Assembly: GCA_002894665.1 (NCBI GenBank)
Contig: NCRB01000001.1
Coordinates: 62,001-126,000, forward strand
DNA length: 64,000 nt
Reading direction: 5' to 3'
Origin: Salinivenus iranica
GTDB lineage: Bacteria > Bacteroidota > Rhodothermia > Rhodothermales > Salinibacteraceae
Part shown: one piece after another, positions 14,105 to 31,626 of the stretch
How the letters are laid out: each line of letters begins with the position of its first letter
Numbering within the stretch: position 1 is the first letter of the stretch
Notes under the pieces: model-generated
The model's input: only the letters and a program-made list of their open reading frames with translations
Database searches by the model: none
Told to the model about the DNA's origin: nothing
Made by a program: the position numbers and the translations under genes

Positions 14105-14563
14105 GAATGGGCTACACTGTGGGTGAAGGGGACGAACCGCGACGGATCCGACGCTCACCCGGACGTTGCTCTCAAGAGGCGTACCAGAGATCGGCGGTTC
14201 AATTGCTCCACCAGAATGAGGTGTGGGGCGGGTCTGTAAAGTTCACTCACCAGGTGATTTACCCCGTCGGACTGCCCCGTTGGGGATCAAACTGTAATGG
14301 GCGTCCCAATGGAGAGATGAAGATATACACGCGTGACCGCCCGGAGAGACTCGAAAAGACCCGGGTTTGTGGGTCGGATGGAGGAAATTCCGTAATCTTC
14401 TGGCGGAACGCTCTCGCTCATGCTGCCAGTGAGAGATAAAATTCCTAATTCTGTAAAGGAATAATAAAGTTCGTTTAGTGTGAATAAAAGAAGGGTATGC
14501 GGTCTGAGCGAGGGAGCCCCGGGCCGCCCGCCGCAGAGAAAGCTACCTGTATGGGAGAAATGA
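14105..14563. other. geneless spacer upstream of the PA14/cytochrome gene
   Basis: No gene is seen. The section 14430-14490 is strikingly AT-rich compared with its surroundings and contains an inverted repeat ATTCCT-N10-AGGAAT (14441-14462). It probably carries the promoter of the minus-strand 1392-residue protein. The part next to 14563 is the 3' end of the glycan operon that ends there. Confidence 0.45.
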
Positions 14564-15784
14564 TCACGTTTGTTTGCAGACGTGGTCGCTCGAGCAAACA
14601 GAATCCGGGAGGGGGATCGGCGAGGACGTGGGACAGATCTTTTGGAACACCCGGTCGATGCCCAACAGCATTTGGGTGGGAGAGAAGCGAGCCTCGGCGG
14701 CCCGTCGGCCCGCGGCGGCGACGGACCGGGTGCGATCGGGGGCGGCGAGCAAGTCGCGGAGCGTGGTGGCCAGGGCGGACGCTTCTCCGGGGGGCACCAG
14801 CCAACCGGTTGCGCCGTGGTCAATGATTTCGAGGGCGCCGCCGGCCCGGGTGGCCACCACGGGGCGTTCGGCCAGCATGCCCTCCACGATCACGCGCCCA
14901 AACGGCTCGGGCGAAACGGAGGTGTGAGCCACCACGTCGCAGGTGCGCATGAGGGTGGGCACGTCCTCCCGAAAGCCCAGAAAGTGGACTCGGTCGCTCA
15001 GCCCCTGTTCCTCGGCCTGCCGGCGGAGAGCGGCTGCGTACGCGTCGTCACCCTCGAACAGCGCATCTCCGACCAGCAGGATGTGAACGTTGGGCAGGGT
15101 CGCGACCGCGTCTAGGAGAACGTGCTGCCCTTTCCACGGCGCCAGGCGACTGAAGACCCCCACCACAGGCGCCGCCCCCAGCCCGAGTTGCTCGCGCTGG
15201 TGGGCCACCTCGGCCGGCCCCACGGCCCGGAAGGGAGCAGGGGCGATGCCGTTATAGACGACCGACGTAGGGAGTCGTCCGCCCGCATCCGTGAAGGTGC
15301 GCTGGGTGGCCTGCGAGTTGGCAATGACGTGGGACGCCAACCGATTCGCCCCCCAGACGGCCAGGCGTCGGGTCGTCGCCGTGAAGTGCTCGGGCGAGAG
15401 GAGATCGTGAAGGTTCCACACGACGGGCCGAGCTGACCACCAGCCCGCCAGCCCGCCCATGAAGAGCGTCTTCTGAGTGTTTGCAAAGATCAGGTCGTAG
15501 TCGCGCGCCCGATGAGCAAGGCGACACACGGCCTGCGTGAGGCCGGGGAGGGCAGACAGCAAGGCCCGGGGACCGGCCTCCTTCCGGACGGCGTGAACGG
15601 ATTCGCCGACCTCCATCACCTCCGCTGAGACCCCCTCGGCCCGGAGGCGATCGAGGAAGGGACCATCCTCAAACAACACGACGTGGCTCGTGTTGGCGTA
15701 GGCCCGCGCCACGTCGAGCAGGTACAACTCGCCGCCGCCGAGGGCACCGGACTGGTCCAGAAATAGAATGCGAGGGGGAGGCAT
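14564..15784 (-). CDS. glycosyltransferase family 4 (GT-B fold)
   Basis: 406 residues with a complete GT-B layout. The N-terminal acceptor domain starts at RILFLDQSGALGGGELYLL, a glycine-rich loop typical of GT4, and the C-terminal donor domain carries the EPFGRVIVEGMLAERPVVAT signature with the two conserved glutamates. It transfers a sugar from an NDP-sugar to the growing lipid-linked glycan on the cytoplasmic face of the membrane. It is the last gene of the long minus-strand glycan block and lies 9 bases after the preceding GT4 gene. Confidence 0.87.
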   Translation of the reverse strand: MPPPRILFLDQSGALGGGELYLLDVARAYANTSHVVLFEDGPFLDRLRAEGVSAEVMEVGESVHAVRKEAGPRALLSALPGLTQAVCRLAHRARDYDLIFANTQKTLFMGGLAGWWSARPVVWNLHDLLSPEHFTATTRRLAVWGANRLASHVIANSQATQRTFTDAGGRLPTSVVYNGIAPAPFRAVGPAEVAHQREQLGLGAAPVVGVFSRLAPWKGQHVLLDAVATLPNVHILLVGDALFEGDDAYAAALRRQAEEQGLSDRVHFLGFREDVPTLMRTCDVVAHTSVSPEPFGRVIVEGMLAERPVVATRAGGALEIIDHGATGWLVPPGEASALATTLRDLLAAPDRTRSVAAAGRRAAEARFSPTQMLLGIDRVFQKICPTSSPIPLPDSVCSSDHVCKQT

Positions 15785-15793
15785 AGGAGATCG

Positions 15794-16993
15794 TTATTTC
15801 AGAACGTCGGCGTAGACGGATCGGGTACGCCGTGCGATGGTAGGCCAACTGAAGTGCTCGCGGGCGTATTGCTGGCATTCCGCGGACGAGGGAAAGAGCG
15901 ACGGCTGATCGAGGGCCGCGGCCAGTTGGGGGGCGAATGACGGGTCCGTCGCCGCCGGGAGGATGAGGTTGGGGGCCAGGGCCTGCACGGCTTCGGGGAG
16001 GCCGCCCACCGGCGTAACCAGCACCGGCGTGCCGGCCGCCAGCGACTCGACAGTGATGAGGCCAAACCCTTCCAGCGCGACCGTCGGGACCACGGACAGG
16101 TCGGCGGCCCGGTAGGCGAGGGCCAGGTCGGCGTCCGGGACGTATCCGAGCAGGCGCACGTGACGCTGTAGCCCCAGGTCCTCGATGCGGGCGGAGAGAG
16201 CATCGTGAAGGGGGCCCTTGCCGGCGATGAGAAGCAGGACCTCGGGATGGATGCGGCGGACGGTGCGCATCGCGTCGATGAGGGGTTCGAGGCCCATTCG
16301 CTGGGTCAGGCGCCGGACGGAGAGCAGGAGGGGGCGGTCCGTGGGCCATCCCAGTCGGCGTCGGGCGTCCCGGCGCGTCAGCCCCGTGTCGAAGCGGTCC
16401 GGGTCCACCCCGCCCGGCACGATCGACACCCGGTCGGGCGGCACGCCGTATGACTGACACAGCACGTCCCGAAAGGCCGAGGAAAGCACGATGAGCCGGC
16501 CGGCCCGCCGGTACACGTAGCGTTCGAGGGCCGCCTTCAGGACCGATCGGGAGCGGGAGCCGCCGTCGGTGCTCGACTCGGCGGCCCAGGGCCCGTGGAA
16601 GTGGACCACCAGCGGGCGGTCGCCGATCAGGTCGAGCCCCGGGGCGGCGTACAGGGCGAAGTGCGCGGCGACGACCGAGGGATCGTGCGTATCCAGGACG
16701 CGACGGATGGCCTGTCGTGCGTGGTAGAGGCGACGGGGCAGGGGCGTCTCGGGGCGCGAAAATGACTGGACGGCCCCGCCCGACTGGGCGGCCACGGACG
16801 GCGACCCGGCAACGAGCCCGTGTACGCCGACGCCGACCGCCGGGAGATGCCGGGCAAGGCCGTGATACATCTGGTCCAGGCCGTTTCCGGACTGTTCGGG
16901 CAGCCAGCCCATTCCCAGTTGCAGAACCCGCATCGGATCGGACGCGAAGGCCTCGGGCGGCGGAGCGGCGGAGGAGGGCAGGGAGGGAGTCAT
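15794..16993 (-). CDS. glycosyltransferase family 4 (GT-B fold)
   Basis: 399 residues from the ATG at 16993, which leaves an 8-base gap to the upstream GT4. A second ATG at 16933 (MRVLQLG) would give a tighter family start, and the first 20 residues are Pro/Ser/Ala-rich. The donor domain shows GGVDPDRF and the EGFGLITVESLAAGTPVLVT motif with the E-x7-E pair. It is part of a tandem run of GT4 genes and probably adds one sugar of the repeat unit. Donor and linkage cannot be read from the sequence. Confidence 0.85.
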   Translation of the reverse strand: MTPSLPSSAAPPPEAFASDPMRVLQLGMGWLPEQSGNGLDQMYHGLARHLPAVGVGVHGLVAGSPSVAAQSGGAVQSFSRPETPLPRRLYHARQAIRRVLDTHDPSVVAAHFALYAAPGLDLIGDRPLVVHFHGPWAAESSTDGGSRSRSVLKAALERYVYRRAGRLIVLSSAFRDVLCQSYGVPPDRVSIVPGGVDPDRFDTGLTRRDARRRLGWPTDRPLLLSVRRLTQRMGLEPLIDAMRTVRRIHPEVLLLIAGKGPLHDALSARIEDLGLQRHVRLLGYVPDADLALAYRAADLSVVPTVALEGFGLITVESLAAGTPVLVTPVGGLPEAVQALAPNLILPAATDPSFAPQLAAALDQPSLFPSSAECQQYAREHFSWPTIARRTRSVYADVLK

Positions 16994-17001: not shown

Positions 17002-18102
17002 TCAGGCGGAGGCAGGGGGGAGCGACGGCGATGAGGAGAGGGCGGCCCGGCCCGACGCCACGCGCTCGTACAGGGTTTCGTGGGTGCGGGCAATGGTCGC
17101 CCACGTGAAGGCCTCGGCTCGCTGTCGCCCTTTTTCCTCCCAGGAGCGTCGAGCGTCTGTGGAGGTGAGCAGGTGGGCCAGTATAGCCCCGAACTCGGCA
17201 TCCTCGACGATCGCGCCGTACGTCCCGTCATCAAGGACATACTCTGCCCCTCCGTTGGGGGAGCACACGACCGCCGTGCCGCTCGCCATTGCCTCGACGT
17301 ACGGGAGCCCGAAGCCTTCGTACACGCTGGGGGAGGCGAATACCCATGCTTCGCGGTACAGGCGGGCGAGGGTTTCGTCGCTCGGGTGGGCGAACACCTC
17401 AACCTGGGGGTGACGGCGACAGGCGTCGCTTACCGTGTCGCTCACCATCTGGAGGGTGGCGTCCGGCACGGCCGGTAGCACCCGTTCCACGAACGTGTTG
17501 AAGAGAAACGCCCCTCGCTTCCGCCCCGCCCAGGTTCCCACGAAGAGGAGGCGGGGCGCCGAGGCTTTCGGCCCCGGATAAAAGCGTTCTGGGTCGACGC
17601 CGTTATTGACGAGCTGGTCGATGCCGTAGAGGGAGGCGGTGTGCGGGCCGATGCTGAGCGGGAGGGTGGCGAGGCGAGTCGCGATGTGTTCGAGCGGATA
17701 AATGAGTCGCTGGGCCCACCGTCGTTTCCAGGAGGAGGCAGTGCGGGCCTCTTCCAGGGCCGACCCGTGCATGGTGCGAACGGTGGGGAGTCCCCGACGG
17801 ACGAAAAACCAGTCGTCCCCGTGCAGGTGCAGCACATCGTGGTCCCGAAACGACACTGCATTCAGCAGGAGGGGGAGCACGCCCCACCGGAGCACCGACT
17901 GCTCGTGGAGGGCCGGGAGCGAGGGGAAGAGGTGCGTGTGCTCGTACAGGGCATCCGTGGGCGCCGGGGTCAGGCTGAACACCGTCACGTTGTGGGCGGT
18001 GTGCGTTGCGAGTGCGCTCGCCAGACGGTGCACCACGGCCTCTACGCCACCGACTTTGCGGTCGGGCTCGGGAAGGGTGGTGTGAAAAAGAGCAATGTTC
18101 AC
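17002..18102 (-). CDS. glycosyltransferase family 4 (GT-B fold)
   Basis: 366 residues. The N-terminal glycine loop is KVGGVEAVVHRLASAL, an acceptor-site element LHLHGDDWF follows, and the donor domain has VNNGVDPERF and EGFGLPYVEAMASGTAVVCS with the E-x7-E pair. The final 20 residues are Ala/Ser-rich. The stop codon lies 2 bases from the polymerase/ligase gene upstream in transcription, so the two are almost certainly cotranscribed and translationally linked. Confidence 0.87.
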   Translation of the reverse strand: MNIALFHTTLPEPDRKVGGVEAVVHRLASALATHTAHNVTVFSLTPAPTDALYEHTHLFPSLPALHEQSVLRWGVLPLLLNAVSFRDHDVLHLHGDDWFFVRRGLPTVRTMHGSALEEARTASSWKRRWAQRLIYPLEHIATRLATLPLSIGPHTASLYGIDQLVNNGVDPERFYPGPKASAPRLLFVGTWAGRKRGAFLFNTFVERVLPAVPDATLQMVSDTVSDACRRHPQVEVFAHPSDETLARLYREAWVFASPSVYEGFGLPYVEAMASGTAVVCSPNGGAEYVLDDGTYGAIVEDAEFGAILAHLLTSTDARRSWEEKGRQRAEAFTWATIARTHETLYERVASGRAALSSSPSLPPASA

Positions 18103-18104: not shown

Positions 18105-19553
18105 TTAGTGGGCCGTGTAGGCGTGCTGAGGAGAAGAGGCGTCGGGGGAGAGGGCGGCCTCGGTCGCTTGTTGGTGTTGGTGGTGCCGGTGGGCCGCCAG
18201 GACCAGGGCCAGGAACGACCAGAGCACAGCGCCGGTCTCCTCGATCATCTCGCGTCCGAAGAGCAGCATCGTGAAGTAGCCGATTGCGACGGCCATCACA
18301 ATCAAGGCGAACTGGTCGTTGGGGGCCGGGCGGGCCAGGAACACCGCGTTGTACAGCAGCCAGAGCAGGCCGCCGAGGTACAGGGCGCCGCCAAACCAGC
18401 CGAGCTGCCAGAGAATGGTCACGAAGCCACTGTCGTACAGGGCGCTCCCAATCCCCATCCCAATCGGGTTGAAGAGCACTTCCCCCGTCACCTGCTGATA
18501 CATCGTCTGCCGTTCGGTGAGGCTGTGGTCGTCCTGGAGCGAGCTAAATGATTCGAGCCGCGCGCCCGTCGTTTCGGCAATCTCGCCCGTGATGGCAATG
18601 GGCACAATGAGGATTCCAAGGACGACCATGATCGCGACGAGGCGGGTGCGGAGGCGGCCCGGGAAGCGCCACACGAGGGCGCTCATCCCAACCATCCAGC
18701 CCCCCCAGGCGCTCCGGACGAGTGACAGGAGGAAGGCAATGTACCCGGGCACCGCCGAGAGCGTCCCGAGGGTGGATCGGGCGTCGAAGACGAGCAGGAG
18801 CCCGGCCCACAGGATCGTGGCGAACGGGCCGGGGGCACTGAGGGTGCTAAACACCCGCACTTCCATGGGTTCGGCGCGTCCGATGGAGTGCATCCCCGAC
18901 CGCTCCATCCAGAGCGCGTCCCACGGGGGGAGCACAAAGAACTGAATGAGGCCGTAGACGCCCATCACCAGCGTGCCGCCGATGAAGGTGGCCCGCACCA
19001 CGCGCCGGTATCGGGGATACTGGCGCCAGTGGGCCATCACGTGAAAGCTCAGAAGCAGGGGACAGAGCCAACTGAGCAGGGCGACGGTGGCGGGAAACCC
19101 GCCGACCGTCGGCAGCCCCACCAGAAACCCGTACGCCACGGCGATGAAGCACAGGGCAATGGGGGCGAAGAAGGAGTGGCGGAGCTCTCGTCCAAAGCGG
19201 GGCAGGTCAAACAGGGCGATGCCACTCACGACAAAGGGCGCGAGCAACACAAAGGCCTGGTTGGGCGGCGTGAACGTCCCAATCTGGTAGTCGATGAGTC
19301 GTCGCACAAAGGGCGACAAAAACCACACCCACCAGGCGAAGCCCAGGTAGAGGGCCGGGTTTGAAAGGTACAGCCAGAACCCGATGGTGACCGTGAGGCC
19401 GAGGTAGGCGAGGTTGAGGAGCCGAAGCAGTTCTTCGTGCTGGCTCTGAAACAGGAGGGCGAACCCGCAGAGGGAGATCAAGATCACCCCGCCTGCGAGG
19501 AGCGACGCCCGCCTGTCGTCGCGGGCCGTGTCGAAAAGCGTTTGGAGGGCCAT
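18105..19553 (-). CDS. O-antigen polymerase/ligase-like membrane protein
   Basis: 482 residues with about ten to twelve predicted membrane spans and a large periplasmic loop between about 300 and 370, the layout of the Wzy/WaaL/ExoQ family. Such proteins either polymerise lipid-linked repeat units or move finished chains to an acceptor on the periplasmic side. A region around FSSLQDDHSLTERQTMYQQV resembles the loop that carries the conserved Arg/His residues. The C-terminal 40 residues are His/Gln/Ala-rich and probably cytoplasmic. Surrounded by GT4 genes, it is the only polymerase or ligase candidate in the locus. Confidence 0.8.
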   Translation of the reverse strand: MALQTLFDTARDDRRASLLAGGVILISLCGFALLFQSQHEELLRLLNLAYLGLTVTIGFWLYLSNPALYLGFAWWVWFLSPFVRRLIDYQIGTFTPPNQAFVLLAPFVVSGIALFDLPRFGRELRHSFFAPIALCFIAVAYGFLVGLPTVGGFPATVALLSWLCPLLLSFHVMAHWRQYPRYRRVVRATFIGGTLVMGVYGLIQFFVLPPWDALWMERSGMHSIGRAEPMEVRVFSTLSAPGPFATILWAGLLLVFDARSTLGTLSAVPGYIAFLLSLVRSAWGGWMVGMSALVWRFPGRLRTRLVAIMVVLGILIVPIAITGEIAETTGARLESFSSLQDDHSLTERQTMYQQVTGEVLFNPIGMGIGSALYDSGFVTILWQLGWFGGALYLGGLLWLLYNAVFLARPAPNDQFALIVMAVAIGYFTMLLFGREMIEETGAVLWSFLALVLAAHRHHQHQQATEAALSPDASSPQHAYTAH

Positions 19554-19559: not shown

Positions 19560-20717
19560 TTAGGAAACCGGAGCGCGGGAACGGGGGGAAGGGACCGAGG
19601 GCGAAAGGAGGGACTCCATTCGCTCTGCGAGGCGGGGCCAGTCGAATGTGGACTGATAAAGAGCCTGCCCGGCCTCGCCGATGTGCTCCCGCAACGCCGG
19701 GTCGAGTGCGAGGCGGCGGACCTGTTCGGTAAAGGGGGCGGGGCGGCCCAGGGGGGCGGCGAGAAACGCCGTGCCCGCCGATGACTGCAGGGCCGGTCCC
19801 GTATCCGGGCCGAGGGTGGTGACGACCGGACGTGCGTGCTGGAGGGCCGCCATGACGGACCCGCGTCGCGCCGACAGACCCTTGCGGAAGGGGGCAAGGT
19901 ATAGGTCCATCGCGGAAAGGTAGCGCGACACGAGCGGGGCCGGCTGGGGGCCCGCGGCCACCAGCGGCACATCGGGGCCGAGGGGGGCTCGAATCTGGTC
20001 GCCTCCGGTGCCCACGTGCAGTACCCGCACGGGCAGGCCTTCGTCGAGAAGACGGAGCATGGCGGTGCGAACCAGATCGAAGTCGCGGGACTCATGCGCG
20101 CTCCCAAAGAGCCCGCACACGATGTCGGAGGACTGCAGGCCCAACTGGGTGCGGTCGGCCGTGCGGTGGGCGGGCGTGCGGTCGATGTTGGATCCTACCG
20201 GCAGGTGGTGGAGAGGCGTGTTGGGAAACCAGGCGCGAAATCGGTCGACCCAGGGCTCGATTGAGAAGAAGAGGGCGTCGGCCGCCGATCCCAACGCCCA
20301 GAGCTGCCACCGCTGCCACGTGGTAAAGAGGGCAAACCGCCAGTTTTCCACGGGGACGAAGGGCTCGTGCACCATGAGCGCCACCCGCATCTGGGGGCGG
20401 GCGGTGCGGAGGGCGGAAATCGTCCGGGGGAGACTCAGGTTGAGGCCCCACCGTCCGTAACTGAAGGGATTGTACTGGAGCACAAGCCAGTCGGGCACGT
20501 CGGAGGCGAGGGGCTCGGCGACCGCCTGGATGCCCGCACGGGACGCAAGGTCGAACGCCGGCGTGACCCGACAGCCCGGCACCGGGTCGGCATCGGGGGA
20601 GGCGGTGAGAATGCGCACGTCGTGCCTCGGGGCCAGGGCCGCGCCCAGGTGGGCAGTGTAGTCCCCAATGCCGTCGTAGGCCGGGGGCAGCGCAGGAAAC
20701 AGAAGGTCGATCCGCAT
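19560..20717 (-). CDS. glycosyltransferase family 4 (GT-B fold)
   Basis: 385 residues from the ATG at 20717. The frame reaches 20810, but the first 31 codons look non-coding. The start MRIDLLFPALPPAYDGIGDY carries the GT4 acceptor-domain glycine region. The donor domain is more diverged than in the neighbours: the usual EGFG motif appears as FRKGLSARRGSVMAAL, with the first glutamate replaced. Substrate use may therefore differ. It lies 6 bases upstream of the polymerase/ligase in transcription order. Confidence 0.75.
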   Translation of the reverse strand: MRIDLLFPALPPAYDGIGDYTAHLGAALAPRHDVRILTASPDADPVPGCRVTPAFDLASRAGIQAVAEPLASDVPDWLVLQYNPFSYGRWGLNLSLPRTISALRTARPQMRVALMVHEPFVPVENWRFALFTTWQRWQLWALGSAADALFFSIEPWVDRFRAWFPNTPLHHLPVGSNIDRTPAHRTADRTQLGLQSSDIVCGLFGSAHESRDFDLVRTAMLRLLDEGLPVRVLHVGTGGDQIRAPLGPDVPLVAAGPQPAPLVSRYLSAMDLYLAPFRKGLSARRGSVMAALQHARPVVTTLGPDTGPALQSSAGTAFLAAPLGRPAPFTEQVRRLALDPALREHIGEAGQALYQSTFDWPRLAERMESLLSPSVPSPRSRAPVS

Positions 20718-22012: not shown

Positions 22013-22999
22013 TCAGTGGTAGCCGTACAGGGCAAGCTCAGCGCCGGCAATGCGCTCCGCCTCTTCAATTTCGGCGTCGGACCGCCGCTCGTGCTTGCCG
22101 ATGGACCCGGCGTGGGCCGTGCCCAGCCGCCGGAGGAAGCTACGGCTTGGCTCCAGGTCGAGGTGCTCGAGGATGCGTCGCCCGTGGACGTCCGGGGCCT
22201 GCACAAAGTCCTCGTACCGGAGCTGGAGCACCCGGCCGCTGGCGGCGACTTCGGGGGAGGAGAATACGGTGTGACAGCGGCGGGTCATGTACGCCCACAT
22301 CCAGATGGCCCGCCCGTAGGGACTGGCAGCCAGGAACTCGTCTTCCCGGCCCGCCTCGACCCACCAGGGCACGTACCGGTCGTCCACTTTCCGGCCCAGG
22401 CGCATTTCCGCGCCCAGCAGGTGCGTGAGGCTGTCGTCGGTGAGCACATTGTAGGTCCGCACGAGCGAATTGGCACAGTCCCGCCCGTCGCGGTAGATGT
22501 GGATAATTTTTGCCTCGGGCAGGGCGTCGCACACGAAGTCGGGGGCGAAGGCCAGGAACGGCTCCTTGTAGATCAGACGCTGCTGCGAGCGTCGCCCGCG
22601 GACTGCGTCGAGGAGTCCGGAAAGCCCGGTGGGGGCGTTCACCCATTTTTGCAGGGCGGCGGCGCGCGAGTGGAAGCGGCCCGAGGACATGTAGTCGTCG
22701 AGGCTTCGCTCGAAGGCCACCGTGAGCGCGTCGTAGAGGGCGAGGGGCAGCGACTCCGCGTTCACGACCTGCGGGATGGAGACGGGCAGGAGCGTGCCGG
22801 TCATGCACTCGACATCGGGGAGGCCCGCCAGGGTCTCCATCAGGAAGGTGGTGCCGGAGCGGGGACAGCCCAGAACGACATCGTACCGATGCTTACTGAG
22901 GGCGCGGCCGGGCGAGGAGGGCCCGTGCTCCGAGTGAGGGGCAGGCGTCGTCGTGTTGCCTGCCGGGGCGGCCGCGTGGCCGTTGCGGGGAATGGGCAT
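22013..22999 (-). CDS. PAPS-dependent sulfotransferase (1 of 4)
   Basis: 328 residues from the ATG at 22999. Longer starts at 23044 or 23077 cannot be excluded. The 5'-phosphosulfate loop GCPRSGTTFLMETL and a later 3'-phosphate-binding segment HIYRDGRDCANSLVRTYN are the two cofactor signatures of sulfotransferases, which transfer sulfate from 3'-phosphoadenylyl sulfate to a hydroxyl or amino group. The first 35 residues are a Pro/Gly-rich linker. It lies next to the exostosin-like gene and probably sulfates the polysaccharide made by this locus, although lipid or protein acceptors are possible. Confidence 0.85.
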   Translation of the reverse strand: MPIPRNGHAAAPAGNTTTPAPHSEHGPSSPGRALSKHRYDVVLGCPRSGTTFLMETLAGLPDVECMTGTLLPVSIPQVVNAESLPLALYDALTVAFERSLDDYMSSGRFHSRAAALQKWVNAPTGLSGLLDAVRGRRSQQRLIYKEPFLAFAPDFVCDALPEAKIIHIYRDGRDCANSLVRTYNVLTDDSLTHLLGAEMRLGRKVDDRYVPWWVEAGREDEFLAASPYGRAIWMWAYMTRRCHTVFSSPEVAASGRVLQLRYEDFVQAPDVHGRRILEHLDLEPSRSFLRRLGTAHAGSIGKHERRSDAEIEEAERIAGAELALYGYH

Positions 23000-23155
23000 G
23001 GGGAAACCGAAAGGGGAATAGAGACACGAAATCCAGCCGAGCATGCGGGCTGCGTGGAACTTTACGATACGACGCACGGGGGCCGGGCAGGCAGGAGGTT
23101 TGGCTTTCCTCTCCTCAACCCTGCGATACAGTGTGCCGTCGGAGGGCCGGGGGCG

Positions 23156-24370
23156 CTACTTGAACCGGGGCAGGTACGGGGAGAGCAACAGCAGTCGTTT
23201 GTGGACACGTGCCTGCACGGCCCGACCGGCCTTCAGCAGGACCGTACTCGCCGGAGCCACCAGCCGCTCCTGAAGCAAGGTCGCGGGCCGAAGGAGGATC
23301 GACAACTCCGGGCGCGTGCGGACTGCGCGGAGCAGCCGCTCCAGTCCCAGGGCGAGGACCAGGACGAGGCCGAGGACCCCGACTGTGAAGACGAGGCCAT
23401 CGTAGCCTGTGGAGAAGACGCGACCGACGAGCACATTCAGCACGATGTTGCCCAGCGTAAACGAGAGAAGCGAGGCGCGCCCGAAGGTGAGCAGGGGCGA
23501 CCCGGGGGACAGCGACGTCCGTCCGTACGGCACGAGGTGAAAGAACAGGAGGCACAGCCCGAGGGCCTGGAGCAATCCGAGGAGGTAGTACCCGATGTGG
23601 TACGAGTCGCGGTACTCGTAGTAGTCGAGGTACGAGTACAGGACGGCGGAGGGGGAAGACTGCAGCATGAGGAGGCCCGCGCCGCCCGCGCAGACGGCCA
23701 GGAGAAGGCCGACGTGGAGGTGGAACCGGGCCGAGAGGGTTTCGGGTCGCCGGAGGCTGTTCCCGACCCACATCCCCGCGCCAATGAACGTGAGGCTGTA
23801 GGGAATCATCTGGGTGCCAAGCTCCAGAATGCCCCCAAAGCGACCCACAGGAAGGGTGGCGAGTGCGTTAAGCAGGGGGCTCAGGAGCCAGAGTCCGAAG
23901 CAGACGCCCAGGGTGAGCCCGAGCCCCATCCGGTCGCGGAGCGCGAGCAGGGGAATGGCTACGAGAAGGGCCACGGTGTAGAATTTCAGGATGTTGCCGT
24001 GGTGCCCCCCAAAGATGAACACCAGTGCCTGGAGGGCGTGGCTCCAGTCGAAGAGGCCGAAGACCCATCCGGCGAGCACCGTCAGTACGTACCCGAAGTA
24101 ACACTGCAGGCTTCGCCACAGCAGCGTGGGCACGACCGGAGAGAGGCCGGACGCGGAAATTCGCCGGGCGTAGACCAGTTCCAGCATCATGCCGAACATG
24201 AAGATAAAGGACGGCGCGGCCGCACGGGTGAGGCTCCGCAGGGCCGTGTACTCGAACCCGGAGAGGGGATCCAGGACATTGAAGTCGTTGAAGGCATGAG
24301 CGGCAAGGGCCAGGGCGATGGCCAGGCTGCGCAGCACGTCTACAAAGAGATAGCGGCGGTGGGTGCTCAT
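23156..24370 (-). CDS. acyltransferase-3/OpgC-like membrane protein
   Basis: 404 residues from the ATG at 24370, which overlaps the stop of the upstream GT4 by the ATGA arrangement (24367-24370). The start YLFVDVLRSLAIALALAAHA matches the first helix of acyltransferase-3/OpgC proteins, where an Arg and a His near the membrane surface are functional. About ten further hydrophobic spans follow, ending in a basic tail. Family members O-acetylate or succinylate polysaccharides or lipids at the membrane. A role in acylating the exported glycan fits the neighbours. Confidence 0.72.
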   Translation of the reverse strand: MSTHRRYLFVDVLRSLAIALALAAHAFNDFNVLDPLSGFEYTALRSLTRAAAPSFIFMFGMMLELVYARRISASGLSPVVPTLLWRSLQCYFGYVLTVLAGWVFGLFDWSHALQALVFIFGGHHGNILKFYTVALLVAIPLLALRDRMGLGLTLGVCFGLWLLSPLLNALATLPVGRFGGILELGTQMIPYSLTFIGAGMWVGNSLRRPETLSARFHLHVGLLLAVCAGGAGLLMLQSSPSAVLYSYLDYYEYRDSYHIGYYLLGLLQALGLCLLFFHLVPYGRTSLSPGSPLLTFGRASLLSFTLGNIVLNVLVGRVFSTGYDGLVFTVGVLGLVLVLALGLERLLRAVRTRPELSILLRPATLLQERLVAPASTVLLKAGRAVQARVHKRLLLLSPYLPRFK

Positions 24371-25518
24371 CGAAGAGGGGGGGCGGAGGGAGAGCGGCGG
24401 CTCGCTAGAGACGTGTACAGGGCCTCGTGGCGGTCGAGGAAAGCATCCATCGAATGGTGGGCCCGCACGTGTTCGTAGCCGGCCCGTCCCCGTCGAGCGG
24501 CGACCGTCGGGTTTGTGCACAGACGGTAGAGGGCGTCCGTCAGGGCCGCGTCGTCGTTGGGCGGCACGAGGTGCGAAAAGGAAGGGTGCGCGTATTCGGG
24601 CAGTCCCCCCACCCGAGCGGCCACCACGGGGCGGGCCCGGGCGGCGGCTTCGAGGGGGACGAGGCCGGCCGGTTCGTGCCACACCGAGGGCACGACCACG
24701 GCGCGAGCCCCGTCGACGAGAGCCTCGAGCGCCAGGCCGTCCACCCATCCGTGAAAGGTGACCCGATCGGCGAGCCCAAGCCGTTCGACCTGCGTCTCCA
24801 GGGCGGCCCGATGGTCCCCGGTGCCGGCAATGTCGAGGTGGACCGGGCGGGGGAGGTGGGCAACGGATCGGAGGAGCCAGTCGACGCCCTTTTCGGGAAC
24901 GAGCCGGCCGACGAAGAGGAGACGCGGCGGCCCGTCCGTTGGCAGTGGGCGCGGCGCCGGGGGCCCGGCGGGGCCGGGAGACAGCACGACCTGGAGGTCC
25001 GAGGCCGGATACCCGGCGGCCACCATTTCATCTTTCAGGTACTGGCTCACCGTAAAAGTGGGACGGCCCGGAATCATGGATCTGTTGTCGGCCATCCGTT
25101 GGAATCCGTCCCACACCTTGGCGGGGCGGCGGCTGCCGCAGCCGTCGACGTAGTGCCCAAAGAGGCAGGCGGGCAGGCTCGCGATGCGGGGGCAGGGCGT
25201 GCCGGTCCGCTTCAGGTAGCGCGAGCCGCTCGGGCACGCGGCCCCGTTGTCGTGGACGGTGCGGAGGAGGGGGAGGGACGAAGCGGGGGCGCCCGGCACG
25301 GACTTGTGGAGGTGGAGTACGTCGACCCCGCGTGCCTCCGCCTCCGTGTAGAGGGTTTCTACATCGGGCACTCGGACGCGGGAGGGGCCCGGCGCGCCCT
25401 GGAGGCCCCAGTAGGTAACCGTGTGTCCGCGCGCGACGAGGGCGTCGCCCAAGCGGGTCACGTACGTTTCGATGCCGCCCTGGCCGTCCAGGTCGCGGAC
25501 GAAGTGGCCAATGTGCAT
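24367..25518 (-). CDS. glycosyltransferase family 4 (GT-B fold)
   Basis: 383 residues. The acceptor domain begins with HIGHFVRDLDGQGGIETYV, and the donor domain contains FVGRLVPEKGVDWLL and VVPSVWHEPAGLVPLEAAA (the E-x7-E region, with Pro-Ala-Gly in place of the usual Phe-Gly). Four cysteines cluster at about 94-130 (CPSGSRYLKRTGTPCP and nearby), a feature of a GT4 subgroup that has a small metal-binding-like insert. It is translationally coupled to the acyltransferase-like gene by a 4-base overlap and follows the next GT4 after 5 bases. Confidence 0.86.
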   Translation of the reverse strand: MHIGHFVRDLDGQGGIETYVTRLGDALVARGHTVTYWGLQGAPGPSRVRVPDVETLYTEAEARGVDVLHLHKSVPGAPASSLPLLRTVHDNGAACPSGSRYLKRTGTPCPRIASLPACLFGHYVDGCGSRRPAKVWDGFQRMADNRSMIPGRPTFTVSQYLKDEMVAAGYPASDLQVVLSPGPAGPPAPRPLPTDGPPRLLFVGRLVPEKGVDWLLRSVAHLPRPVHLDIAGTGDHRAALETQVERLGLADRVTFHGWVDGLALEALVDGARAVVVPSVWHEPAGLVPLEAAARARPVVAARVGGLPEYAHPSFSHLVPPNDDAALTDALYRLCTNPTVAARRGRAGYEHVRAHHSMDAFLDRHEALYTSLASRRSPSAPPLR

Positions 25519-25523
25519 GGGAA

Positions 25524-26588
25524 TTAGGCGACGGAAGGGGGAGCGGGGCGGAGGGGGTGGCGCCGGAGGTGCTGCAGCCGGTCGCGGAGGGCGTCGACGT
25601 TTCCCGTGGGCACGACAAAGCCGTTCACGCCGTCCTGGACGTACTCTTTCATGCCGGTGTCCTCGGTGACAATCACCGGGACGCCACAGGCCAGGGCTTC
25701 CATCGGGGCGTACCCGAAGCCGTCCTCGTAGGAGGGGTGGACGAACACGTTGGCCCGGTGCAGGGCGGGCAGCGGGTCGCCGGGCGCCATGCGGAGGCGC
25801 GGCTCGCGGGCCATCCAGCCTTCCATGAACTGCTTCATTTGGCGGGTGGGCCAGCCGCCGACGACGGTGAGTTCGGCGGGATCGGGGAGCGTGCGGAAGG
25901 CCTCCAGGAGCACGGGCAGGCCTTTGGTGATGTCGACGCGGCCCACGTAGACGACCCGGAAGACGTCGTCGTCGGGGCGGTCGGTGGGGGGCACAAACCG
26001 CGAATCGGGGCGGAGGTAGGTGCGCTCCAGCTTGGACGCAGGAATGCCGGCCGCGAGGAAGGAGTCGCGCGTGTAGTCCGAGTGGACGAAGATCCGGTCG
26101 GCCGCCGCGTACTCGGCGAGGGTTTTCCGTCGCTGCCAGTCGTTGAGCCAGGAGGCGCCGCGGAGGTCCCAGGCGGCCTCGGCCTGCGAATGAAGCCGTC
26201 GCACGTTGTCGACGTGGCTGTTGACGGCGACCAGTTCGAGCGTCTCAAACCCTATCGAGCGCGCCCGACGGAAGCTGTGGAGGGACTGCCCGACAAACCC
26301 CATGAACCGCTCGGCGGGGGCGTCCAGCGCGGCCGCGACCCGGCGATCGAAGAAATCGTTTTTCACGTAGCTGGACCATCCGAGGCTGTAGCGGAGGGGC
26401 GTCCATCGATGCAGCCACTGGTAGGAGCGATCGGACAGGGGCCGTCCCCGCGGGCCGTCGGAGGGGGCGGGGGCGGGGTTGAGGTAGTACGCCAGTCCTA
26501 CGCCCTCGTCGGTCTCGCGGACGAGGTGGGCAAAGTGTTGGCCGACGCCGCCCTGGCCATACGGCGATTGGCAGGCAAGTACGCGCAT
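25524..26588 (-). CDS. glycosyltransferase family 4 (GT-B fold)
   Basis: 354 residues from the ATG at 26588. An upstream ATG at 26627 would add 13 residues with no family support. The start MRVLACQSPYGQGGVGQHF has the glycine loop. The donor half has YVGRVDITKGLPVLLEAFRT and EDGFGYAPMEALACGVPVIV with the E-x7-E pair. The unusual middle (SLHSFRRARSIGFETLELV) resembles GT4 proteins that act on sulfated or acidic glycans only in a general way, and no specific function can be named. It is part of the minus-strand glycan block. Confidence 0.86.
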   Translation of the reverse strand: MRVLACQSPYGQGGVGQHFAHLVRETDEGVGLAYYLNPAPAPSDGPRGRPLSDRSYQWLHRWTPLRYSLGWSSYVKNDFFDRRVAAALDAPAERFMGFVGQSLHSFRRARSIGFETLELVAVNSHVDNVRRLHSQAEAAWDLRGASWLNDWQRRKTLAEYAAADRIFVHSDYTRDSFLAAGIPASKLERTYLRPDSRFVPPTDRPDDDVFRVVYVGRVDITKGLPVLLEAFRTLPDPAELTVVGGWPTRQMKQFMEGWMAREPRLRMAPGDPLPALHRANVFVHPSYEDGFGYAPMEALACGVPVIVTEDTGMKEYVQDGVNGFVVPTGNVDALRDRLQHLRRHPLRPAPPSVA

Positions 26589-26715
26589 TGCAGCGAGGAG
26601 ATCGGAAGGGGAGTTGTAAGGTCGCACTTGTAGCGCCCGGCGGCATCAGTCATTGCCAGGGGCCGGGGGGGAGGTTCGGATCATGTGCCGTCCACTTCTG
26701 CCGGGCGGTCGGGCA

Positions 26716-27762
26716 TCACGACGAGGTCGAGAGCATGCGGGTCCAGCGCGCCCACAGTCGGCGGGGCAGGGAGCGGAGGCGGGCGCGAACCCCCAAAAAC
26801 ATGGGGGTGAGCACGGCGAAGTGCCGGTCGTAGCGATACCGCCACCACTGGAATGCCCAGTACGTCCGTTTCGCGGCCAGTTGGCAGGCGGCCCCCCACG
26901 AGAGCGCGGCCCCCACCGGGGCGTATCCGAATTCGTCCATTTCGTCGGCACAGACCCGCTCGATGATGGCGATCTCCGACTCGCTCAGCTGGCTGCGCCA
27001 TTTTTCGGCTTCTGTCGGGCTGATGGGACGTGTGGCCGTCTGGTTGTAGGTGGACGCCGCCTCGTCGAGCATGAAGCGATCGGCGTTCTGGTGGAAGCGC
27101 AGCATCTCGGGCTCGTACGCCGTCTCTAGGAAGCCGCAGATGCGCCCCAGGGTGTGCTGGGGGGCGCCGACAAGGTCTTCGTACCGCACCTCCATCCGCT
27201 GGTCGGCCGGCACCGCACGGGCGAGCCAGTCGCGGCCGTGCGTCATGATTTTGTGCCGGTTCAGGGCGTTGAAGGTGGCGTCGGAGCTAAAGAACGAGAC
27301 GCGCTGCATGGAGGCGACGCCGCCCCGGGGATCGCGCACCACGTGGAGGAAGCGCGCGTCCGGAAACATGTCGATGAGGATGTTCGAGTGGTAGATGTTG
27401 CCCGGGGTTTTTTCGCCCCATCGGGCCTTTCCGTAGTGGGCGGCCCACCGGGTCAGCAGCACCTGATACGGTCGCCGGAAGTCCTGGGGCCCGTCGAGGA
27501 GTTCGGCCCGAACGGACGACAGGTCCAACTCCCGGACCTTGGGCCGATTGGCGTCGAGGAAGCGGTCCACAAACGCTTCGTACTCCGTGGCGGAGAGCTG
27601 CGGCTCGGTCCACGCCTCGTACGAGATTTCCGTTTTGGTAAACCCGTAAAAGTAGTTGATCTCGTCCGGGATGGCGATTTCGGAGTGCGCGTTCAGCACG
27701 AGCCGAAGGAGCGTGGTGCCAGAGCGGTTGGCACCGACGATAAAAATAGGAGCAGTAGACAT
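26716..27762 (-). CDS. sulfotransferase family protein (2 of 4)
   Basis: 348 residues from the ATG at 27762. The frame starts 21 bases earlier, but the usual family start is MSTAPIFIVGANRSGTTLLR, which holds the PAPS 5'-phosphosulfate loop. A second cofactor element is FLHVVRDPRGGVASMQRVSF (about 148-167). The C-terminal helices are basic and Trp-rich. It is clearly paralogous to the next gene (27787), matching it along almost its whole length, so the pair arose by tandem duplication. Different acceptors, such as two positions on one glycan, are a plausible reason to keep both. Confidence 0.86.
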   Translation of the reverse strand: MSTAPIFIVGANRSGTTLLRLVLNAHSEIAIPDEINYFYGFTKTEISYEAWTEPQLSATEYEAFVDRFLDANRPKVRELDLSSVRAELLDGPQDFRRPYQVLLTRWAAHYGKARWGEKTPGNIYHSNILIDMFPDARFLHVVRDPRGGVASMQRVSFFSSDATFNALNRHKIMTHGRDWLARAVPADQRMEVRYEDLVGAPQHTLGRICGFLETAYEPEMLRFHQNADRFMLDEAASTYNQTATRPISPTEAEKWRSQLSESEIAIIERVCADEMDEFGYAPVGAALSWGAACQLAAKRTYWAFQWWRYRYDRHFAVLTPMFLGVRARLRSLPRRLWARWTRMLSTSS

Positions 27763-27786
27763 CGGGTAGGGGGGGTGTGGCACTCG

Positions 27787-28788
27787 CTAGAACAGGGAGC
27801 GGAGGCGCGGGCGCCAGCGACGGAGTCGAGCGTGGAGCCCGGAGAGGAAGGGGTAGCTGATCTCATATCCGCGGTGCGCTCGGTGCTGCCAGCGCTTCCA
27901 GTGCCAGTACGCCGCTTTTAAAACGATCCGGCCGTATATCGTGAGTGCAGGGTCGGTCAATCGCTCGTACCCAAGACGCTCCATCTCAGCCGAGCAAAGC
28001 ACCTCCACAATCTCGATCTCGGTGCGCGTCAGCTGTGTCTTCCATTTCGAAAGGCTCTTCTGATTCACCGGATTCCGTATGGCGGGCGTGCGGATGGTGG
28101 AGGGCATGTGGTCGGCCGCGGTCTCGTAGAATCGGAGCATCGCGGGCTCGTACGCTTCGTGGAGGAAGCGACAGATCGTGCGGAGCGTCGCTTCGGGCGC
28201 AGAGACCAGGTCCTCGTACGAGACGTTCAGTTGTTGGTCGGGCGAAAGGACGTCCTGAAAGGCGGTCGCTCCTTCGCGAATCGACCGTCGCCAGTTCAGG
28301 GCGTTAAATACAGTTTCGCCGGAGTAGTACGCAATCGCGTTCATCGAGCGGGTGACGGCGCGCGGGTCGCGAACGACGTGGATGAACTTCGCTCCGGGAA
28401 ACATGTCGTTGAGCACGTCCACGTAGAACAAGTTGTGCGGCGTCTTTTCGCCCCATCGGGCCTTGCCGTGTTGCCGACACAAATGCTCCAGGACCACCCG
28501 GTACGGGCCCCGAAGCGTACGCTCTGGGTCCTCTGCGATCTGGGCCTCCAGGCGGTCGAGATCGGTCGCAAAGAGGTCGCGCCGGGCCTCCAGGTACTGC
28601 CGCACGAGGCGCCGGTACGTGTCGTCGGGAACGGGGGAGGTCCAGGACTCGACATCGACCGGGGCGTGGAGGGTCTGGAAGTATTTGAGCTCCCGGGGGA
28701 GGAAGAGGCGAGAGTGGGCATTCAGCATCAGGCGCAGGAGGGTCGTTCCTGAGCGGCTGGCCCCAACGATGAAAAACGGGGTCGACAT
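27787..28788 (-). CDS. sulfotransferase family protein (3 of 4)
   Basis: 333 residues. The start PFFIVGASRSGTTLLRLMLN is the PAPS-binding loop, and FIHVVRDPRAVTRSMNAIAY is the 3'-phosphate-binding stretch. WGEKTPHN, also present in the paralog at 26716, is a strongly conserved block of this sulfotransferase subgroup. The C-terminus is rich in Arg and aromatic residues, as if peripheral to the membrane. It is separated from its paralog by 24 bases and from the next sulfotransferase by 35 bases, so a single transcript is expected. Confidence 0.87.
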   Translation of the reverse strand: MSTPFFIVGASRSGTTLLRLMLNAHSRLFLPRELKYFQTLHAPVDVESWTSPVPDDTYRRLVRQYLEARRDLFATDLDRLEAQIAEDPERTLRGPYRVVLEHLCRQHGKARWGEKTPHNLFYVDVLNDMFPGAKFIHVVRDPRAVTRSMNAIAYYSGETVFNALNWRRSIREGATAFQDVLSPDQQLNVSYEDLVSAPEATLRTICRFLHEAYEPAMLRFYETAADHMPSTIRTPAIRNPVNQKSLSKWKTQLTRTEIEIVEVLCSAEMERLGYERLTDPALTIYGRIVLKAAYWHWKRWQHRAHRGYEISYPFLSGLHARLRRWRPRLRSLF

Positions 28789-28823
28789 GTCTGGGCGGAA
28801 GAAAGGGGGCGGGCGGGGGACGG

Positions 28824-29549
28824 TTAGACAGGGACCGGGGCGGCCTTTTCCACCAGCGCGTCGTACAGCGCGGTGGACGCAGGAAATCGGTCGGCGAGGG
28901 CAAAGTCGGTCGCCTCCGCCTTGTGCCGAGACGCTCGTTCGGGGTCGATGCCCTGGTTGGAGTAAATGGGCGTGAAGGCGTAGCCCTCCAACATCTGCGA
29001 TTGAAAGGGGCGGTCCAGGAAGTCGGCCACGCGGTGCATCGTCTCCTCGGGGGCCTGCACCAGCTGCTCAAACCGCAGGAGCAGCAGGTCCACATCTGCG
29101 CGCTGCGAGAGGGTGTGGAGGATCTCCAGGCTTCGTCGCCAGCGGTACGTGGCGGTGTCTTCGGTCTGCTCGCCCCGCCGGACGATGGAGGAGATCACGG
29201 CGTTTCCGTCCCGGAGAATGCCGATCACCTTGAGTGGGGACTTGGTCGAGAGGTACTCGTTGATGGAGCGGGCGGCCTCGGGCCGTCGGGTGAAGTATCC
29301 GTGCCGGTACAGCCGATCGTGGGCGGCGGGGCCCAGCAGTCGTGCCCACGCCGGTTTTTTCCGGTCCAGCTCGATCTGGTTGGGAATGCAGAGCTTATTG
29401 CCCACGATCGGTTTGCTGATGATTGTGTCGATGGCGTCGCCAAAGTCCTCGTTCAGCATGGCGATGTCGTTGTGGCGGCCGATCATGGCGGTGAGGAGCG
29501 TTGTGCCGGACCGTGGGGCCCCGAGAATGAGGAGGTAGGTTTTGGGCAT
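28824..29549 (-). CDS. sulfotransferase family protein (4 of 4)
   Basis: 241 residues, shorter than the two neighbours and of a different subgroup. YLLILGAPRSGTTLLTAMIG holds the PAPS loop, and GILRDGNAVISSIVRRGEQT the second cofactor site. The C-terminal 40 residues are acidic and may be incomplete relative to longer relatives, but the reading frame is intact. It is directly downstream of the ABC exporter gene in transcription order, with a 39-base gap. Its likely role is sulfation of the glycan or of its lipid anchor. Confidence 0.82.
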   Translation of the reverse strand: MPKTYLLILGAPRSGTTLLTAMIGRHNDIAMLNEDFGDAIDTIISKPIVGNKLCIPNQIELDRKKPAWARLLGPAAHDRLYRHGYFTRRPEAARSINEYLSTKSPLKVIGILRDGNAVISSIVRRGEQTEDTATYRWRRSLEILHTLSQRADVDLLLLRFEQLVQAPEETMHRVADFLDRPFQSQMLEGYAFTPIYSNQGIDPERASRHKAEATDFALADRFPASTALYDALVEKAAPVPV

Positions 29550-29588: not shown

Positions 29589-31406
29589 TTAGGATCCCGC
29601 AAGCTGGAACTGGATGTCGTGGTAGGTCGACAGGTGGCCGTTCCGCGCGAGCAGCTCGCTGTAGGGGCCTTCTTCAACGACTTCTCCGTCTTCGAGAACG
29701 ACCACCCAGTCTGCATTCTGAATCGTAGAGAGGCGGTGCGCAATGGCGAGCACCGTCCGGCCCTCCATCAACCGGTCGAGGGATTGCTGGACCAGTTGCT
29801 CCGATACGCTGTCGAGGGCACTGGTCGCCTCATCCAGAATGAGGATGTCGGGGTCCTTGAGCAGGGCGCGGGCGATGGCAATGCGTTGGCGCTGGCCCCC
29901 GGAGAGCCGGAGCCCCTTGTCGCCGAGCGATGTCTCGAATCCGGACTCCATGTCTTCGATGAAGTCGAGGGCATTGGCCTCTTTCGCGACCCGCCGGATG
30001 TCTTCGGGGGAGGCGCCGGGACGGCCGTAGGCGATGTTGGCGGCCACCGTGTCGTTGAAGATGAAGGTGTGCTGGCTGACCACGGCGATGCGCTCGCGCA
30101 GCGAGTGCTGAACCAGGTCGCGAAGGTCCACGCCGTCGTACAGGATGCGTCCCTCATCGGGATCGTAGAAGCGGGGGACGAGGTCCGCAAGCGTTGATTT
30201 GCCCGCCCCCGAGCTGCCCACGAGGGCCGTCATCTTGCCGGCCTGAATGTGCAGGTCGATGTTTTTGAGAATCGGGTCGTCCGACCGGTAGCCGAAGGTG
30301 ACGTGGTCGAACGTGATGCCGTCGCGAAGGGGACCGGCCGATTGTGTGCCGTCGGCTAGGTAGGGCTTGTCCTCGCGGCGCAGCAGCGCGGCCACGTTGG
30401 CGAGGCCGGCACGGTTCTCGGCCCAGTTGCTCCGCAGCCCGTTCATTTCGTGGACGATGGGGAGGGCGCGGAACAGAGCAAAGAGGAACGTGAGGACGAA
30501 GGCAATCCCGAGGTCGCCGGACACCACGAAGAACTGCACCGTGATCACGATGAACACCACGAGGAGGGTGCCGATGATGGCCTCTGAGAGGGGGCGGATG
30601 ATGGAGGTGCGCCGTGTGGTCTCCACGACGGACTCCGCGAGGTCGTTGACGGACGTTTCGAGGCGGTTGCGCTCAAACTCCTGTCGGTTGTAGGCCACTA
30701 CGGTGCGGATCGCCGCGATAAACTCGGAAATCCGTTCGGTGAACGTGCCGCTGGCCTCCGTCACGACGGAGCCCTGCTCGCGGACGCGCTGGATGAGGGA
30801 GGTGAGCCCGAGAGACAAAACCACCAGGAGGCCGAGGACGAAGAGGGTCAGTTCCCACGAAATCCAGAACATCAGGCCGAGGTACACCAGCAGCAACGAG
30901 CCGCGCGTGACGACGGTGAAGAAGATGCCGAGCGCGGTCGTCGTGCGCGCGATCTCCGTGATGATGCTGTTGAGGATCTGCCCGGATCGCGTCTTGCTAT
31001 AGAAGCTGAGGTTGACGGACAGCAACTGGTCGACGAGGCGCATGCGCAGGTCCTCCACGATGCGCGACCGGCTCACCGTGGCCAGGATGGCGGTCCGGTA
31101 CGCGAAGAGGGCCCGCAGCCAGGTGGCGACGAGGATGGCGCCACAGATGTAGTACATCTGCGTGAGACGCGACGCCCCGACGCCCAGGACGTAGGTGTCG
31201 ATCCAGGTTATGCCGGTGGTAAAGGGACTTCCCTCTCCTTCCGTGAACGTCTGCAGGAAGGGGATGAGCATCCCAATGCTGAACCCTTCCAGCAGAGAGG
31301 CAAGGAAGGAGAGGAGGGCCGTGGCCCCCACGAAATACCAGTACTTCCGAAAACTCGGAAGCAGGACCTCGAAGTCGACACGGGACGGGGCGGTTTGGGT
31401 GCTCAC
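29589..31406 (-). CDS. MsbA-type ABC exporter (fused membrane and ATPase domains)
   Basis: 605 residues from a GTG at 31406. The frame extends to 31532, but those 42 codons are Arg/Pro-rich and lack the expected features. About six membrane spans (20-320) precede the ATPase with Walker A GSSGAGKST (about 397-405), signature LSGGQRQRIAIARALL and Walker B DILILDEATSALD. Such half-transporters act as dimers and flip lipid-linked glycans or lipids from the inner to the outer leaflet. As the probable first gene of the minus-strand glycan operon it is the best candidate exporter here, because no wzx-type flippase or wza/wzc set is visible. Confidence 0.85.
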   Translation of the reverse strand: MSTQTAPSRVDFEVLLPSFRKYWYFVGATALLSFLASLLEGFSIGMLIPFLQTFTEGEGSPFTTGITWIDTYVLGVGASRLTQMYYICGAILVATWLRALFAYRTAILATVSRSRIVEDLRMRLVDQLLSVNLSFYSKTRSGQILNSIITEIARTTTALGIFFTVVTRGSLLLVYLGLMFWISWELTLFVLGLLVVLSLGLTSLIQRVREQGSVVTEASGTFTERISEFIAAIRTVVAYNRQEFERNRLETSVNDLAESVVETTRRTSIIRPLSEAIIGTLLVVFIVITVQFFVVSGDLGIAFVLTFLFALFRALPIVHEMNGLRSNWAENRAGLANVAALLRREDKPYLADGTQSAGPLRDGITFDHVTFGYRSDDPILKNIDLHIQAGKMTALVGSSGAGKSTLADLVPRFYDPDEGRILYDGVDLRDLVQHSLRERIAVVSQHTFIFNDTVAANIAYGRPGASPEDIRRVAKEANALDFIEDMESGFETSLGDKGLRLSGGQRQRIAIARALLKDPDILILDEATSALDSVSEQLVQQSLDRLMEGRTVLAIAHRLSTIQNADWVVVLEDGEVVEEGPYSELLARNGHLSTYHDIQFQLAGS

Positions 31407-31626
31407 GGTGGTCGAGAAGAGAAGGGGGGTGGGAATACCGAAGGTACGCGGAGGAATCGGACGAGGGCGGCGCGTTCCTCCCTCTCCCTTACGGAAGGAT
31501 TGGCGCTGTTCTACTGCGCCTTCGGATGACACTCGGGGTAGACAGGAGGAACACCTCAGGGGCCCGCGGGGCTCCGGGGCGGGCGGCCCGGATCGTGTCA
31601 GAGTCGTACTTGTTCCGCCGCACCCC

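Follow-up and report, generated by a model that had tools for sequence, protein, structure and literature searches.

Here, we describe a locus of Salinivenus iranica in which four sulfotransferase (ST) genes are interleaved with the genes of what is probably a surface-glycan operon. The window, by which we mean the whole 64,000-nucleotide stretch that was analysed, corresponds to positions 62001-126000 of contig C1 in a draft genome (G000) of 3.4 Mb. Fourteen glycan genes, all on the minus strand, follow one another from position 31532 to 14564, a run of about 17 kb, in the order exporter, ST-D, ST-C, ST-B, GT4f, GT4e, acyltransferase, ST-A, GT47, GT4d, Wzy-like, GT4c, GT4b and GT4a (Table 1). 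The glycosyltransferases (GTs) thus number six of GT4 type and one GT47. Spacing between genes is -4 to 88 bp, with one exception of about 290 bp between GT47 and GT4d, which was computed with the GT4d start moved to the ATG at 20717. We discarded a plus-strand open reading frame at 21983-24478 (831 aa), which overlaps ST-A and the acyltransferase, as a high-G+C shadow, its third-position G+C being 0.68 versus 0.81-0.86 in the cluster genes.

An earlier note, made from the sequence alone, had placed four sulfotransferases with intact motifs for binding 3'-phosphoadenosine 5'-phosphosulfate (PAPS) at 22013-29549, two of them tandem paralogs, with GT4, exostosin-like, acyltransferase-like and exporter genes on the same strand. 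This description holds up well. The four open reading frames are found at these coordinates, and each protein scores above the curated PF13469 cut-off of 27 bits. Among the neighbours, Pfam and NCBIfam identify the GT4-type genes, Exostosin_GT47, an HGSNAT_cat/OpgC_C acyltransferase and an ATP-binding cassette (ABC) exporter. Both PAPS loops are present in all four sulfotransferases: the 5' loops read GCPRSGTT, GANRSGTT, GASRSGTT and GAPRSGTT, the 3' loops follow the pattern RD-x6-S, and R20, S21, G22, T23, T24, R150, D151 and S158 (ST-B numbering) are invariant in an alignment of 11 rows. A crude scan gave no transmembrane (TM) segment in any of the four, which fits the expectation for cytosolic sulfation. 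ST-A probably starts at an inner ATG, since the starts of its orthologs sit closer to the PAPS loop. If nine sulfotransferase genes are assumed in 3.4 Mb, the Poisson probability of four in a given 7.5 kb is 6e-9, or about 3e-6 over all such windows.

Table 1. Genes of the glycan run and the large gene that follows it, with window coordinates
Feature	Coordinates	Strand	Evidence
HepA-type ABC exporter, membrane and ATPase domains fused, first gene of run	29589..31532	-	Pfam ABC_membrane and ABC_tran; NCBIfam HepA_fam_ABC 749.2 bits (cut-off 725)
ST-D, short PAPS sulfotransferase, 241 aa	28824..29549	-	PF13469 61.7 bits, E 1.6e-16; GAPRSGTT and RDGNAVISS; TPST1 match E 1.5e-7
ST-C, PAPS sulfotransferase, diverged tandem paralog of ST-B	27787..28788	-	PF13469 135 bits, E 5.9e-39; AlphaFold model
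ST-B, PAPS sulfotransferase	26716..27783	-	PF13469 116.9 bits, E 2e-33; CurM and TPST2 matches
GT4f, GT4 glycosyltransferase	25524..26627	-	PF00534 97.2 bits
GT4e, GT4 glycosyltransferase	24367..25518	-	PF13692 106.8 bits
Polytopic membrane acyltransferase, HGSNAT/OpgC-like	23156..24370	-	PF10129 39.9 bits and PF07786 32.8 bits, both above cut-off; about 7 TM segments (crude scan)
ST-A, PAPS sulfotransferase	22013..23077	-	PF13469 84.6 bits, E 1.5e-23
GT47 (exostosin-domain) glycosyltransferase, 329 aa	21008..21997	-	PF03016 58.2 bits
GT4d, GT4-like glycosyltransferase, start taken at ATG 20717	19560..20717	-	PF13692 24.8 bits, slightly below cut-off 27
Polytopic membrane protein, weak Wzy/O-antigen ligase match	18105..19553	-	PF04932 25 bits, below cut-off 31.7; about 11 TM segments (crude scan)
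GT4c, GT4 glycosyltransferase	17002..18102	-	PF13692 68.4 bits
GT4b, GT4 glycosyltransferase	15794..16993	-	PF00534 114.5 bits
GT4a, GT4 glycosyltransferase, last glycan gene	14564..15784	-	PF00534 118.1 bits
Large secreted protein with PA14, Big_7, type IX secretion system (T9SS) sorting tail and one CADCH haem motif	9926..14158	-	Pfam

The tandem paralogs are ST-B (26716) and ST-C (27787), which are 41% identical over 331 columns. A recent duplication is unsupported, as ST-B is closer to proteins of two other genomes, G010 and G015 (52-54%), than to ST-C; its closest relatives, found in G010, G015, Longimonas and GSL.Bin3, share 44-54% identity. ST-B and ST-C match the CurM and olefin-synthase sulfotransferases and the tyrosylprotein sulfotransferases (TPSTs) in PDB by sequence. 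The AlphaFold model of ST-C, with a predicted local distance difference test (pLDDT) score of 79.9, superposes on TPST1 with Z 21.0 (root-mean-square deviation 3.1, 238 residues), followed by CurM with Z 19.7 (4.0, 247 residues) and the olefin-synthase sulfotransferase with Z 19.6. ST-A has a weak PDB sequence match (E 1.4e-4) and a poor structure model (mean pLDDT 58.7). Its orthologs are 55-58% identical and form a group with support 100/97 in a tree of 21 sulfotransferases, in which three further groups defined below (K, N and S) are also supported. Most of the remaining branches, 12 of the 18 inner ones, are open, and only small groups were used; one Salinibacter ruber fragment with internal stops was left out.

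The cluster recurs in related genomes. A GT47 gene was found in 10 of 60 genomes, the present one included; at a threshold of E 1e-150, four of the 13 genomes of the genus matched the exporter. We compared ten genomes with parts of the cluster: our own, G001 (Salinivenus lutea), G008, G010, G014 (Longimonas halophila), G015, G018, G021, G022 and G024. Salinivenus lutea has the same gene order, with cluster proteins 96-99% identical (97-98% for the sulfotransferases); its assembly breaks between ST-C and ST-D, leaving the cluster split over two contig ends (C68 and C1). Six clusters are complete from the exporter to the large downstream protein, namely our own and those of G001 (on two contigs), G008, G010, G014 (locus L088) and G021. 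The exporter, GT4d, GT4b, GT4a and the large protein are present in all six, GT47 and GT4e in five each (G008 lacks them), and the Wzy-like match in five, G010 having an unmatched frame at that position; GT4f and GT4c occur in fewer. Over all ten clusters, GT4d was matched in every one, and the acyltransferase, searched with tblastn, only in the window and Salinivenus lutea. Contig ends cut the clusters of G018, G022 and G024. The cluster of G015 lies in two loci, with GT47 and ST-B at C1:486-488 kb and the remainder at 166-176 kb. The tenth genome with GT47, G030, has GT47 alone matched in the stretch examined. G010 carries an extra RXYLT1/exostosin-like gene directly after the exporter (L073, 9683-10720).

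The sulfotransferases differ from one cluster to the next, with about seven types over the ten. In addition to A-D, we named type K after its KCATGW loop, type N after its AGNSKSGT loop, and types S and T after the genes L068:6698 and L068:2466. The proteins scored against Pfam were K of G010, K, S, T and B-like of G014, K and N of G021 and N of G022; the others come from tblastn or a genome-wide family search. Among complete clusters, the sets are A, B, C and D in our genome and G001; B and K in G010; K and S in G008; B, B-like, K, S and T in G014; and N, K, S and T in G021, so that no two of the five distinct lineages whose cluster is complete have the same set. The cut or split clusters hold A, B and N (G022), A and K (G018), A (G024) and B (G015). 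Of the compared clusters, only those of the window and Salinivenus lutea contained ST-D. The positions that sulfotransferases take in the operon are fixed in part. All four distinct genomes with ST-A (our own, G018, G022 and G024) carry it between GT4e and GT47, an interval that in our genome also holds the acyltransferase, and a K-type gene directly precedes GT4e in four of five genomes with K (G010, G014, G018 and G021, the exception being G008). The assembly set is largely kept across the family and the sulfotransferases are exchanged, which makes the sulfate pattern the likely variable epitope.

Beyond this cluster, PF13469 matches occur in 37 of 41 related genomes, our own included, and in all 13 of the genus. 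Of these 13, at least 10 carry four or more sulfotransferase genes inside 15 kb; such genome-wide counts are lower bounds. Pieces less than 250 bp apart were merged, but our own ST-C and ST-D were counted separately. Together with the published Salinibacter ruber islands discussed below, this means that several sulfotransferases per glycan locus are the rule in this group and not new. Elsewhere in our genome, contig C97 (L053) has a second sulfotransferase group, accompanied by genes for a GT4, a YbbR protein and a YfhO-like membrane protein; contig C71 has one further sulfotransferase gene, and C82 a broken one. Near GT47 homologs of other phyla (L089, L090, L092-L097), no sulfotransferase was found with queries that would miss distant ones. 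At L091 (8255-10879), from an uncultured bacterium, a HepA-type exporter adjoins GT47, with a GT4d relative further on. The same queries, blind to distant sulfotransferases, found none there either, and the locus is possibly an unsulfated version of the cluster.

A PAPS synthesis pathway, which the earlier note had proposed looking for, is encoded on contig C82. The search of the genome gave one adenosine 5'-phosphosulfate (APS) kinase gene and one CysD, both of whose products exceed NCBIfam cut-offs: CysD reaches 430 bits on TIGR02039 (cut-off 396.6) and CysNC 899.1 bits on NF004035 (cut-off 715). Around them lie genes for a nucleotide-sugar dehydrogenase (456.8 versus 189.8 bits), an epimerase/dehydratase, rmlB/rmlA/rmlC and a relative of the DASS-type anion symporters that scores below its cut-off. 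About 4 kb from the PAPS-synthesis genes is the broken sulfotransferase of C82 (L055, 2595-2953, minus strand), matched in pieces with one TGA within a piece. The genome has three PF00459 genes, of which the two scored fall under the cut-off for CysQ, the phosphatase that removes PAP. In the window itself, the plus strand beside the cluster (368-8652) carries nucleotide-sugar genes (a nucleotidyltransferase, an epimerase and a dTDP-sugar isomerase) and two GT8 genes.

For export, the first gene of the run exceeds the curated HepA cut-off (NF045513) and falls below those of MsbA and PglK. The GT47 profile A1 matches exostosin-1, -2 and -like 3 (EXT1, EXT2 and EXTL3) in PDB, and the Pfam match is confined to profile positions 168-290 of 293. 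The parallel with glycosaminoglycan synthesis that the earlier note had drawn from the exostosin neighbour comes down to this one partial GT47 domain and a low-scoring HGSNAT/OpgC match. Pfam reported no GT64 domain among the 14 cluster proteins, so the GT47 and GT64 pairing of EXT-type enzymes does not occur here. We have therefore dropped a glycosaminoglycan-like polymer as the product, the EXT likeness being limited to the GT47 domain.

Judged from gene content, the run 31532-14564 is probably a surface-glycan biosynthesis operon that makes a sulfated lipid-linked glycan, which would be sulfated in the cytosol and then exported. In the mechanism we propose, the six GT4-type and one GT47 glycosyltransferases would assemble an oligosaccharide on a membrane lipid at the cytosolic side. 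The four soluble sulfotransferases, with PAPS supplied by CysD/CysNC, would each modify a different position of this presumed acceptor, which would give several sulfate positions; the acyltransferase may attach a further group. The HepA-type ABC exporter would carry the chain over the inner membrane, and the Wzy/ligase-like protein may polymerise it or link it to its carrier. The earlier note had likewise pictured a sulfated surface glycan of a halophile with several sulfation positions, and this remains the best-supported reading given the PAPS motifs, the HepA-type exporter, the PAPS locus among nucleotide-sugar genes and the near-identical cluster of Salinivenus lutea. Its description of the glycan as heavily sulfated goes beyond these data.

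Several observations weigh against this reading. The PAPS genes are on a different contig from the cluster, and they also serve assimilation, to which two CysH-type reductases in the genome attest. Pfam recognised no initiating glycosyl-phosphate transferase in the run, and the Wzy/O-antigen ligase match lies under its cut-off (Table 1). Tyrosylprotein sulfotransferases are the nearest folds of the ST-C model, so the acceptor cannot be read from the fold. Finally, ST-A lacks the glutamate that ST-B, ST-C and ST-D share after the 5' loop, it and its orthologs having GTLLPV there, which makes its catalysis unsure.

The large protein encoded beyond GT4a raises the question of whether the sulfated oligosaccharide is instead a protein glycan, perhaps attached to this very protein. 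It has 1410 residues, of which the N-terminal 700 or so have no Pfam match, and it or a homolog follows the cluster in all eight genomes with a continuing contig (our own, G001, G008, G010, G014, G015, G018 and G021). A single CxxCH haem motif is present in all eight further reading frames that cover the N-terminal region. Three of these frames come from a different family of the same order, and homologs of the PA14/T9SS protein occur in other families of the order as well. Among halophiles there is a precedent, the N-glycan of Halobacterium salinarum, which is sulfated by two sulfotransferases (PMC11980604). Co-location is no proof of attachment, however. In the window and G014 the T9SS tail belongs to the same reading frame, which is not so for several other homologs, and no oligosaccharyltransferase was recognised by Pfam among the cluster genes. 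We consider this explanation unlikely.

Alternatively, the sulfotransferases might act on a glycolipid rather than a surface polysaccharide, with the exporter flipping the sulfated glycolipid. Members of this PAPS-dependent superfamily can use glycolipids as acceptors, and sulfur-bearing lipids are made plausible by a full-length relative of UDP-sulfoquinovose synthase on contig C56, the only full-length one in the genome (466 bits versus a curated cut-off of 575). Sulfoquinovose is a sulfonate, however, and needs no PAPS sulfotransferase, and the synthase relative belongs to a different glycan cluster; a sulfoquinovose lipid was accordingly dropped as the product of the present one. Seven glycosyltransferases and a Wzy-like membrane protein also exceed the needs of a simple glycolipid, and we regard the idea as distinctly improbable. 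The C56 cluster (L109, C56:1-19900, from 2123-6896 on to 13013) combines the synthase relative with a CysH-type reductase, epimerases, an ABC exporter, GT2, GT4 and Wzy_C. It possibly makes a surface glycan containing a sulfonate sugar, for which it would supply its own sulfite.

Some of the four sulfotransferases might also be non-functional leftovers in a variable island, giving fewer than four types of sulfate. The strong variation of the sets, the TGA-bearing copy on C82, the shortness of ST-D and its presence in two genomes only, and the missing glutamate of ST-A all speak for this, but the four frames are open with every PAPS-binding residue in place and their Salinivenus lutea copies are nearly identical, and we find it very unlikely. 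That ST-B, ST-C and ST-D are TPST-like protein-tyrosine sulfotransferases in a coincidental glycan context is extremely unlikely: TPST1/2 are the nearest folds to ST-C, and the glutamate after the 5' loop, presumably the catalytic base Glu99 of TPST2, is invariant in all eight rows of alignment A4, but sulfotransferases with other acceptors rank next, no peptide substrate gene was seen (none was sought), and the interleaving with glycosyltransferases recurs across genera.

A sulfated surface glycan also allows a broader and tentative idea, which we rate as doubtful. The locus may be a family-wide modular sulfation locus, in which a shared assembly line (HepA exporter, GT4s, often GT47, and the Wzy-like protein) changes its sulfate code as sulfotransferase cassettes replace one another at fixed positions of the operon; the haem-motif PA14 protein would be a dedicated surface protein that carries or binds the sulfated chain. 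If true, bacteria would have an equivalent of combinatorial sulfation codes, with phages as the selecting force.

Sulfotransferase-rich glycan loci are already known, and the point worth following is how sulfotransferases are exchanged while the scaffold stays partly shared; our searches of the open-licence literature gave no description of this. Nor did we find anything there on this cluster under Rhodothermaeota sulfotransferases or sulfated polysaccharide of Salinibacter ruber. Sulfated bacterial polysaccharides outside cyanobacteria are few so far. If the locus makes one, Salinivenus lutea and Longimonas halophila, both cultured, would provide related assembly lines that differ in their set of sulfotransferases. 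A comparison of their glycans would then allow the assignment of enzymes to positions, and the role of sulfate in brine and in phage recognition, to be tested.

The closest setting is that of Salinibacter ruber, whose hypervariable regions and flexible genomic islands are described as rich in sulfotransferases and glycosyltransferases within O-antigen clusters and are tied to virus recognition, and whose strains vary in sulfonated and glycosylated metabolites (PMC6060240, PMC3669384). These islands come from the same family as the present host and have the same enrichment. The two differ in that G003, which we take to be S. ruber DSM 13855, gave no match of the present GT47, nor of the exporter at E 1e-150.

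Further afield, the Halobacterium salinarum enzymes Agl30 and Agl31 resemble our case in serving a halophile and in being a pair of sulfotransferases that modify two sugars of a single glycan; that glycan, however, is an archaeal N-glycan, and the enzymes are annotated there as alkaline-phosphatase/sulfatase-like, not PF13469 (PMC11980604). The glycosaminoglycan-like cluster of Pontiella sulfatireligans pairs a sulfotransferase with GT4/GT2 genes, and a sulfated exopolymer was detected, but it is described with a single sulfotransferase (PMC7356697). For Cobetia marina KMM 1449 and Vibrio sp. KMM 8419, the structures of sulfated capsules have been solved. Like our genome, each is reported to combine PAPS genes, rhamnose genes, glycosyltransferases, sulfotransferases and ABC export within one organism; unlike in ours, the PAPS genes lie inside the capsule locus, and the three sulfotransferase genes of the Vibrio are spread over three regions (PMC11766843, PMC11641403). 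The synechan (xss) cluster of Synechocystis 6803 places sulfotransferases among eight glycosyltransferases, and its sulfated polysaccharide has been proven by chemistry and mutants. Its authors wrote in 2021 that, to their knowledge, two sulfotransferases had not been described in any other cluster for a bacterial exopolysaccharide. Synechan has those two and export through Wzx/Wzy and a co-polymerase, whereas the present locus has four and a HepA-type ABC exporter (PMC8205485).

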